From Neoscytalidium dimidiatum (lineage: Eukaryota; Ascomycota; Dothideomycetes; Botryosphaeriales; Botryosphaeriaceae), in assembly GCA_037367355.1 (NCBI GenBank), contig CM074697.1, positions 3,658,001 to 3,722,000 of the forward strand: a stretch of DNA of 64,000 bases. The letters run 5' to 3'. The first letter of the stretch is position 1, and every line of letters starts with the position of its first letter. A program made the translations under genes and the position numbers. The notes under the pieces are model-generated. The model saw only the letters and a list, made by a program, of their open reading frames with translations, did no database searches and was not told where the DNA came from. Positions 23,177 through 26,620 of the stretch are shown piece after piece.

Positions 23177-24259
23177 CTACGCCTTCTCACTCTCTTTCAC
23201 CTTCTCCGCAAGCAATCTCTCAAACTCTGCGAGCTCCTCCTTGGGAATAGGATACGTGTGTTCAGGTGCAGGGTAGGCACGCGACTTGACTTCGTTCTTG
23301 TAGTCGGTAATGGCGCGCATGCTCTCCGTCCAGACATTGCCGTACTGTTTGACGAATTTGGGGAGGAAGCGGCCGGGTGAGAAGTTTCCGAGCATATCGA
23401 CCTGAACGAGGACTTGGCCGGAGCAGCCGTTACCGGCGCCGATGCCGATCGTCGGAATGCTCAGCTTCTTCGTCACCAAAGCCGCAACCTCGGGCGGTAC
23501 GGCTTCCAGAACCGTACCGAACGCACCAGCTTCTTGCACGGCGAGGGCATCTTGCAACAACTTGAGAGCGCCGGCTGTGGATTTGCCTTGCACGCGGAAA
23601 CCGCCGAGGGCATTCTGGCGCTGGGGTGTCAGACCGATGTGCGCGAGGACAGGAATGCCGGCGCGGGTGATCTTGGCGATAGTGGGTGCCATTTCGATAC
23701 CGCCCTCAAGCTTGACGCCCTGCATGCGGCCTTCCTTGACCATGCGGATGGCCGACTCCAGGGCTTGTTCGGGTGCGATTTCGTACGATCCCATAGGCAG
23801 GTCGCCAACCTGAAGGCGTTCGCATTAGCAACTGTACATAGGATCAATAGTAGAGAAATGACTGACAGTGAAGGAAGACTTGGTAGCACGCGCAACAGAG
23901 CGGCAGTGCACTAGCATGTCCTCCAACGTGACCTCGCTTGTATCCTCCATACCCATGGCAACCATAGCGAGGCTGTCGCCAACTAGAATAATGTCCATGC
24001 CGGCATGGTCGGCGAGGGTTGCGGAGGGGAAGTCGTATGCAGTGAGCACGGCGATAGGCTCGTTCTTGCGATGCAGCGCTTGCAGAGTGTTGAGCGTCAC
24101 CTTCTTGCGCAAGGGGGCAGACGGCGTGCCCATGGGTGAGTGCGAGCTGTTACGCATTTGCATGAGTGGCACGAGCAGAGCCGACGGCGGCGACGACTTG
24201 CGCAGCGCGGAGGCGCATCGCGCAGAGGGAATAAGGCAGTTCAGGACGGCACGCGACAT
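23177..24259 (-). CDS. panB: Ketopantoate hydroxymethyltransferase
   Basis: Two exons, 24259-23867 and 23809-23177, with a 57-nt intron (GTCAGT...TTCAG) give 342 codons (341 aa). The enzyme (3-methyl-2-oxobutanoate hydroxymethyltransferase, EC 2.1.2.11) adds a hydroxymethyl group from methylene-tetrahydrofolate to alpha-ketoisovalerate, the first committed step of pantothenate and CoA synthesis. Family motifs: T-A-Y-D-F-P-S-A and D-I-I-L-V-G-D-S-L-A near residues 72-95 (Mg-binding Asp), D-L-P-M-G-S-Y, V-K-L-E-G-G, H-I-G-L-T-P-Q and the T-I-G-I-G-A-G region. The ~45-residue basic, Ser/Arg-rich N-terminus is a probable mitochondrial presequence. Length is normal for fungi. Confidence 0.95.
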
Positions 24260-25463: not shown

Positions 25464-26620
25464 ATGAGCAGCCCCAAGCGGAGGATCGAGACGGATGTAG
25501 GTCACACATACACGCCGCGTCTGCGGATCTAGAGAAAGAAGGGAATAAGAGGCTGACGGAGCGCTTTGCGCGCGGTGAATCTAGGTCATGAAGTATGTAG
25601 CAGGCAGCGTGACGGTGTATGGAATTCCTGTCGCTAACTGACTGGCAGGATGTATGTGTGATTGCCATCAAGGCTTCTTTTTGCCACCGTTGGAGCCTGC
25701 GCAAAGTACTAACGTAGCGCGTAGGCTGATGAGCGACTACGAGGTGACTCTAGTCAATGATAACAGTGAGTAGTCTCCTGTCAGAATAATTCCACCTTGT
25801 TTTTGTATGCTGATGATCTTACAGTGTTCGTCACCACCTGCCATCACAAAAAGGCGATATGCGCATAGAGGACTAACGGGAACCCAGGCAAGAATTCTAC
25901 GTGCGCTTCAAGGGACCGGAAGAGAGTATGGAACACACCTATATAGACACTCGCACCGTTCCTGTGCATTTCCCCGTGAGGTTTATTTTGTTAACTTCTG
26001 TTTGCAATGTGTAGCTCCCTTCGCCGGCGGTCTCTGGAAGATCCACGTCGAGCTGCCTGACCAGTACCCGTACAAAAGCCCCAGCATCGGTTTCGTGAAC
26101 CGCATCTTCCACCCCAATATCGACGAACTGTAAGCATGCTCTCGGTTGTGCTGGGCAGTGTTGCGCGTCCACACATCACTGAAATTCTGTAAAGGCCACT
26201 TTACTGAGAGGTATCGACATAGGTCCGGCTCCGTTTGCTTGGATGTCATCAACCAGACCTGGTCGCCCATGTACGACATGATCAACATCTTCGAAGTGTT
26301 CCTCCCACAGCTACTGCGCTACCCAAACCCTACCGATCCGCTGAATGGGGAGGCCGCTGCCCTGCTCATGCGGGAGCCGAAGAGCTATGATGCCAAAGTC
26401 CGAGGTGTGTATCAGAAGGCTCCAGCCGAGCAACAGTCACTTAGAACGACGGAGACATTCCTTTCTAACATTTCCGGCAGAGTACGTAAACAAGTACGCG
26501 TCAAAGGAAGCTGCCGATGATGCAGACGAGGACAGTGATGAGGAGGACGAGATGAGCTCAGTCGGCAGCTACGAGTCGGGCGACGACGAAGAGCCGGCGG
26601 GCAACATGGAGGAGATCTGA
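25464..26620 (+). CDS. UBC8: E2 ubiquitin-conjugating enzyme, UBC8/UBE2H type
   Basis: The frame needs nine exons: 25464-25496, 25585-25592, 25649-25651, 25725-25765, 25825-25825, 25888-25925, 26015-26129, 26223-26404 and 26481-26620; 561 nt, 187 codons (186 aa). The start [14 protein letters not shown] matches yeast Ubc8. UBC-fold motifs: H74-P-N, active-site Cys85 in [12 protein letters not shown], and D-P-L-N-G-E-A-A near 117. The acidic Ser/Asp/Glu tail after ~residue 150 is typical. Yeast Ubc8 acts in degradation of gluconeogenic enzymes. Exon 3 (GAT) completes Lys14 and begins Met15; exon 5 is a single T, the middle base of Met29. Each tiny exon is flanked by its own introns with donors (GTATGT, GTGAGT, GTTCGT) and branch sites (CTAAC, TACTAAC, CTGAT, ACTAAC). 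Skipping exon 3 costs one residue; skipping exon 5 breaks the frame unless other sites are used (see findings). Confidence 0.92.

Follow-up and report, generated by a model that had tools for sequence, protein, structure and literature searches.

The UBC8 locus of Neoscytalidium dimidiatum (25464-26620, plus strand) raises the question of whether a single base is retained as an exon between two introns. An earlier note had proposed T25825 as such an exon, and the proposal was examined in the window (the whole 64,000-nt stretch of DNA that was analysed), in the genome and among relatives of the encoded protein. As judged from these sequences, T25825 is very probably a one-nucleotide exon of UBC8, a gene for a UBE2H-type E2, and its use is probably constitutive.

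The gene was modelled with nine exons (33, 8, 3, 41, 1, 38, 115, 182 and 140 nt) and eight GT-AG introns (88, 56, 73, 59, 62, 89, 93 and 76 nt). The coding part of exon 1 (25464-25496) specifies 11 residues colinear with yeast Ubc8 (8pmq_E) and is followed by intron 1 (25497-25584, GTAGGT...CTAG). Exon 2 is a microexon, GTCATGAA (25585-25592), which carries the family residues VMK, and it is separated by intron 2 (25593-25648, GTATGT...GCTAAC...GCAG) from exon 3, the microexon GAT (25649-25651), which ends the Lys and begins the Met of VMKMLMSD. The 8-nt exon thus lies just upstream of the 3-nt exon, and it takes five exons (33, 8, 3, 41 and 1 nt) to make up the first 86 coding bases of UBC8. 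Intron 3 (25652-25724, GTATGT...ACTAAC...GTAG) leads to exons 4 to 6, which are described below. The rest of the model comprises intron 6 (25926-26014), exon 7 (26015-26129), intron 7 (26130-26222), exon 8 (26223-26404), in which we take a 13-residue segment to be the active-site region, intron 8 (26405-26480) and exon 9 (26481-26620), which encodes an acidic C-terminus and the stop.

With T25825 included, the product has 186 aa and aligns without gaps with yeast Ubc8 (8pmq_E) up to residue 154. Its best structure matches were 8pmq_E (1.6e-68, named E2-24 kDa) and 8pjn_2 (2.3e-66, E2 H), and PF00179 gave two exon matches above the cut-off at the locus. With this domain, and with yeast Ubc8 and human UBE2H as the closest solved relatives, the gene is identified by its encoded sequence as UBC8, a UBE2H-type E2 (ubiquitin-attaching enzyme). 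When the genome (43.8 Mb, 40 contigs) was searched with the whole protein, 14 matches were obtained, three of which were the UBC8 locus itself; the other eleven were E2-like with at most 41% identity, and no second UBC8-like locus was present among the 14 matches in the whole genome. Among the matches listed, the closest named relatives included Eremomyces (94%, with 91% of the query covered), a dothideomycete according to a taxonomy look-up, and Myriangium and Cenococcum (91%), which we take to be dothideomycetes likewise. Searches for UBC8 yielded no fungal locus in genome contigs, where three prokaryotic UBC-like loci were matched, and no locus at all in viral contigs.

Exon 4 (25725-25765) ends in ...AAC A, and exon 6 (25888-25925) begins with G CAA GAA TTC; these boundaries and T25825 agree with the earlier note in both sequence and coordinates. 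The 122-nt stretch between the two exons (25766-25887) is cut by T25825 into two complete GT-AG introns, as had been claimed. Intron 4 (25766-25824, 59 nt) has the donor GTGAGT, the branch-like motif GCTGATG and the acceptor TTACAG, and intron 5 (25826-25887, 62 nt) has the donor GTTCGT, the branch-like motif GACTAACG and the acceptor CCCAG. Exon 5 (25825-25825) is accordingly the single base lying between TTACAG and GTTCGT, with a boundary, AG-T-GT, that is common to both introns. Less favourable to this reading are the donor of intron 5, whose +3 base is T, and the intron 4 branch, which reads CTGAT in place of CTAAC.

The reading frame needs this base. Translation of exon 4 joined to exon 6 without T showed a frame shift with a stop at about codon 69, which bears out the statement that the best donor joined straight to CCCAG shifts the frame. 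With T, the junction reads AAC ATG CAA (Asn28-Met29-Gln30), the T being the middle base of the Met29 codon ATG, and the predicted spliced sequence is ...GATAAC-ATG-CAAGAATTC. N-M-Q-E-F and the length of the Ubc8 family are restored, again as proposed. Exactly one AG-N-GT occurs within 25766-25887, and no other AG in that stretch with its nearest GT at most 12 nt downstream would divide it into two introns that both reach 40 nt.

The chance occurrence of such an arrangement was estimated from 20,000 dinucleotide-preserving shuffles of the interior of the stretch, in which its first 6 and last 20 nt stayed in place. In 9.9% of the shuffles there was an AGNGT with both introns of at least 45 nt; the figure fell to 0.475% when T, YAG and a CTRAY branch motif were demanded in addition, and to 0.015% for AG-T-GT with branch motif, YAG and a GTNNGT donor (introns at least 45 nt). 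These percentages are a guide only, because the null leaves both ends unshuffled and was devised once the motif was known.

Relatives provided the second line of evidence. We collected 208 distinct proteins from three protein searches (best 120 matches of each), in which two of the query proteins carried Met at codon 29 and one carried NSEQEF. The proteins were sorted by source tag, contig size and record name, so that transcript-like is an inferred label. It was given to 69 proteins from jgi, lgn, merc or ena sources, most of them on contigs of about 1 kb, with five contigs of 2.5-7.3 kb and four entries without contig data. A further 54 genome models or named records came from outside Pezizomycotina, including one labelled Anthurium, which was taken for a contaminant, and 83 were Pezizomycotina genome models, in which some genera and species are represented repeatedly; two plant proteins were set aside. 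The clades of seven taxa were looked up, and those of the others are presumed.

Among the matches listed, the codon between NDN and QEF was Met, at family length, in all 69 transcript-like proteins and in 54/54 of those from outside Pezizomycotina. In contrast, only 16/83 Pezizomycotina genome models listed read Met, 65/83 were garbled exactly there and 2/83 were unreadable. Fisher tests against the 16/83 gave 7e-28 and 5e-24, values that are not literal probabilities, since shared pipelines and related species make the rows depend on one another. The 16 Met-reading models, of which P0027 and P0180 are also tagged lgn/jgi, could represent correct annotation, transcript-derived members or intron loss. 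The third search was intended as an out-of-sample test in Sordariomycetes; its list consisted mostly of transcript-like proteins and outgroups and added just two Pezizomycotina genome models, both with Met, and the prediction was not borne out by that list.

A taxonomic control was made by comparing the 69 transcript-like proteins, with the N-terminal part removed, with 137 named ones. Pezizomycotina models were clearly the best match for 53 of them, 15 were undecided and one was nearest an outsider. Proteins with matched cores differed at the codon: P0002 has Met and a core 100% identical to P0037 (Lepidopterella), which reads SMRSPQM; P0024 has Met and a core 100% identical to P0072 (Penicillium chrysogenum), which reads K; and P0015 has Met and a core 99% identical to P0116 (Aspergillus tanneri), which reads MYVEYKE.... 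Models also disagreed within species, with three readings at the Met29 codon in four models of Hortaea werneckii and different readings in the two models of Lasiodiplodia theobromae, and likewise in Acidomyces richmondensis. Together, the matched cores and the disagreement within species indicate that the scatter points to annotation, not to biology. At the level of protein sequence, the comparison shows most of the listed Pezizomycotina UBC8 models to be wrong at one codon.

The garbled readings themselves are informative. In 16/65 the models read S-x-Q (AGT xx-G, with x being K, E, M, T, G or R), which fits an annotator using the second GT of a GTNNGT donor (GTAAGT, GTGAGT, GTATGT, GTACGT and similar) after AAC A. 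Another 8/65 read M-[YF]-V (ATG TAY/TTY GTN), as is expected if intron 4 is removed up to T and intron 5 is read through (T-GTAYGT, T-GTTYGT), and 3/65 read K alone, that is, an AG within exon 6. The others start with S and are longer, except P0136 (16/65), contain other inserts (15/65), or have R-Q or R-S at family length (7/65), for which no simple splice-site shift accounts. Garbled examples were found in Tuber (Pezizomycetes), Epichloe (Sordariomycetes), Drepanopeziza (Leotiomycetes), Coccidioides (Eurotiomycetes), and Aureobasidium and Eremomyces (Dothideomycetes).

Two groups of models deserve separate mention. The Pezizomycotina models P0014, P0031, P0041, P0068, P0078, P0102 and P0170 have Arg for Met at family length, perhaps because a one-base G exon was annotated or another base stands there. 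P0039 (Botryosphaeria) and P0058 (Septoria) read NDN-M-S-V..., a misfit with T followed by a GT donor.

Explanations that do without a T exon were sought by pairing GT/GC donors at 25745-25799 with AG acceptors at 25800-25915. Three single-intron solutions were in frame: NDNSEQEF (donor 25770), NDNKF (acceptor 25892) and an intron of 160 nt, which was rejected since it loses 13 conserved residues. The first two, both named in the earlier note, are the in-frame forms that keep the flanking residues, and among the matches listed both occur only in genome models; their spliced sequences would read ...GATAACAGTGAGCAAG or ...GATAACAAATTC.

The best surviving of these explanations, though a very unlikely one, is a single intron of 118 nt that would begin with GTAGTC, a weak donor, at 25770 and end with CCCAG at 25887. 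The earlier note had given its product correctly as NSEQEF and had placed the donor at 25774; it starts at 25770. This intron is in frame and GT-AG, and NDNSEQEF is found in two genome models (P0051 and P0104), with the same shift in 14 more; nor did anything structural in the analysis speak against a loop longer by one residue. However, the product is one residue over the family length, and 0/69 transcript-like proteins carry it; when a query of the NSEQEF form was used, NSEQEF appeared only in genome models and in no transcript-like protein (best 120 of 1008). The intron would also leave a complete internal intron end and start ignored, and its donor showed no excess in a donor-free intron scan of candidates against controls (1 vs 1, whereas GTGAGT, four bases upstream, gave 4 vs 0; small counts).

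An assembly error is less probable still. If a T had been lost from the contig before G25888, one ordinary 122-nt intron would be enough, and a single-base indel would give exactly such a frame problem. Against this, a T is already present between two complete introns, and among the matches listed the same codon is garbled in 65/83 Pezizomycotina models from many assemblies, 8 of which show the T-GTNYGT junction.

We give hardly any credence to an intron of 127 nt that would start with GTGAGT (25766) and end with the AG in exon 6 (25892). It is in frame, and NDNK-F is read in three genome models (P0059, P0066 and P0072), but the product NDNKF is two residues shorter, loses M-Q-E and is found in 0/69 transcript-like proteins; P0024, the transcript-like protein that shares its core with P0072, reads Met. 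It is just as improbable that UBC8 is broken or spliced otherwise, with a mature mRNA that lacks Met29, a view opposed by the sole UBC8-like locus among the 14 genome matches, its otherwise intact exons, its GT-AG introns and its strongly conserved protein. The one-nucleotide exon proposed in the earlier note is the best explanation, supported by the frame, the anatomy of the stretch and the Met of relatives, and we infer that it is used in this species.

Splice-site statistics in the genome were consulted as well. In the donor-free scan, GTTCGT was also in excess (4 vs 0; small counts), and intron 5 was not one of the four candidates. A motif-seeded intron scan gave candidates exceeding the control at 50-65 nt and picked up 0/8 of the UBC8 introns, the gene's exons being mostly shorter than the open flanks required. 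Training of donor, branch and acceptor matrices on 290 kb of the genome gave too few introns or drifted into coding sequence, and the splice sites of UBC8 therefore carry no reliable strength score. All UBC8 introns scored below the picked set with the drifted, unreliable matrices, which, equally unreliably, placed the single intron of 122 nt and the one that yields NKF slightly above either short intron.

The neighbouring 3-nt exon GAT showed a related pattern. AG-GAT-GT with branch, YAG and GTNNGT occurred in 0 of 20,000 shuffles. Among the matches listed before the third search, a VMKMLMSD-like stretch of family length was present in 57/60 transcript-like proteins and 28/28 proteins from outside Pezizomycotina; the remaining 3/60 start with MDVMKMLMSD and so have the family length too. 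For the Pezizomycotina genome models listed, 45/81 had the family length, 17/81 were one residue short and 19/81 were garbled or lacked the segment. Skipping of GAT gives VMKLMSD, one residue short, and models such as VMKMYV... fit GAT-GTATGT read through. The 3-nt exon also seems to be conserved, and genome models of Pezizomycotina frequently skip or garble it.

Considering how T25825 could be spliced, the factors at the 3' site of intron 4 would occupy, at AG-T-GT, positions overlapping with those of the factors at the 5' site of intron 5. Introns 4 and 5 are therefore probably removed consecutively, as Guo and Liu argue from overlapping sites for APC11 in the excerpted text of PMC4674806. 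In either order of removal, the first step would leave the remaining splice sites intact. A one-base exon could hardly be defined as an exon, and the sizes of introns 4 and 5, within the 50-65 nt range of excess candidates, fit recognition across the intron.

With Met in the transcript-like proteins and garbling in the models, the UBC8 one-base exon appears to be old and conserved, and its misannotation systematic. Provided that the arrangement is homologous across classes, it would predate the split of Pezizomycetes and Leotiomyceta, put at 435 Mya (400-487) in the excerpts of PMC3683012. It is likely, on the protein-level pattern, that the one-nt and 3-nt exons were already present in the ancestor of Pezizomycetes and the other sampled Pezizomycotina and were kept in most lineages. 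If this is true, no other spliceosomal one-base exon so far described in fungi would be as deeply conserved as that of UBC8, and most Pezizomycotina genomes would owe their wrong UBC8 models to it.

One-base exons are an established rarity, to which UBC8 adds a new case. The remark in the earlier note that they are very rarely documented is right yet dated, as those of APC11, VPS55 and CYP621A have been confirmed at transcript level. In the excerpts of two reports on plant APC11 and VPS55, this confirmation is described (PMC4674806, PMC8831610), and it is stated that land plants have conserved the 1-nt microexons and that annotations lack them (PMC8831610). For APC11, short-read mappers are reported to be capable of overlooking the one-base exon (PMC8831610). 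Like T25825, they are one base between AG and GT, required for the product and unannotated (PMC4674806, PMC8831610), and their conservation over long times (PMC8831610) is what we propose for UBC8. They differ, according to the same excerpts, in belonging to plants, in introns that sometimes reach a greater length (Arabidopsis APC11 has 422 nt of intronic sequence, compared with about 60 nt for each of the UBC8 introns 4 and 5) and in their verification by RT-PCR, for APC11 also by mutation (PMC4674806, PMC8831610).

The closest parallel in kind is CYP621A of Fusarium, whose one-base exon its authors, in the part of the report seen, call the first in a fungal gene and confirm with SRA reads (PMC12940212). 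As in UBC8, the gene is a fungal nuclear one, with AG-N-GT between introns and a frame that matters in a conserved motif, and nearly all model-built transcripts are wrong at that place (PMC12940212, excerpts). The CYP621A base is a G in the middle of a Gly codon, known from Fusarium species and SRA reads (PMC12940212, excerpts), whereas that of UBC8 is a T in a housekeeping E2 gene, with a pattern seen in protein models of several Pezizomycotina classes.

Two other fungal arrangements are similar in part. The [D1,2] stwintrons of Pezizomycotina, as described in the excerpts of PMC5639578, share adjoining introns, misannotation and probably also consecutive removal with UBC8, but there the internal intron sits within the external donor, after its first base (G) and before its second (U), whereas in UBC8 one base stays in the predicted mRNA. 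The bases on either side of intron 4 are A25765 and T25825, not G and T, and the UBC8 arrangement is therefore not a [D1,2] stwintron. In the mitochondrial rnl gene of a fungus, a single base also lies between two introns, but these are group II introns in an rRNA gene and not spliceosomal (PMC12308204, in the text available). Among the matches listed in the literature on one-base exons, fungal microexons, stwintrons and UBC8 introns, no one-base exon of UBC8 was found.

An exon of one base is the smallest that a spliceosome can retain, and known examples are very few. The interest of UBC8 lies in the likely breadth and age of its conservation, in its being a housekeeping gene and in a large annotation error that can be checked. 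A deeply conserved housekeeping case in tractable moulds would be a natural system in which to test how, and in which order, two introns with one base in common are removed. Further one-base exons could also be sought at codons on which transcript-derived proteins are unanimous and genome models diverge.

Elsewhere in the window, an open frame of 205 aa lies on the minus strand at 23177-23794; by its motifs, it presumably resembles a ketopantoate hydroxymethyltransferase.
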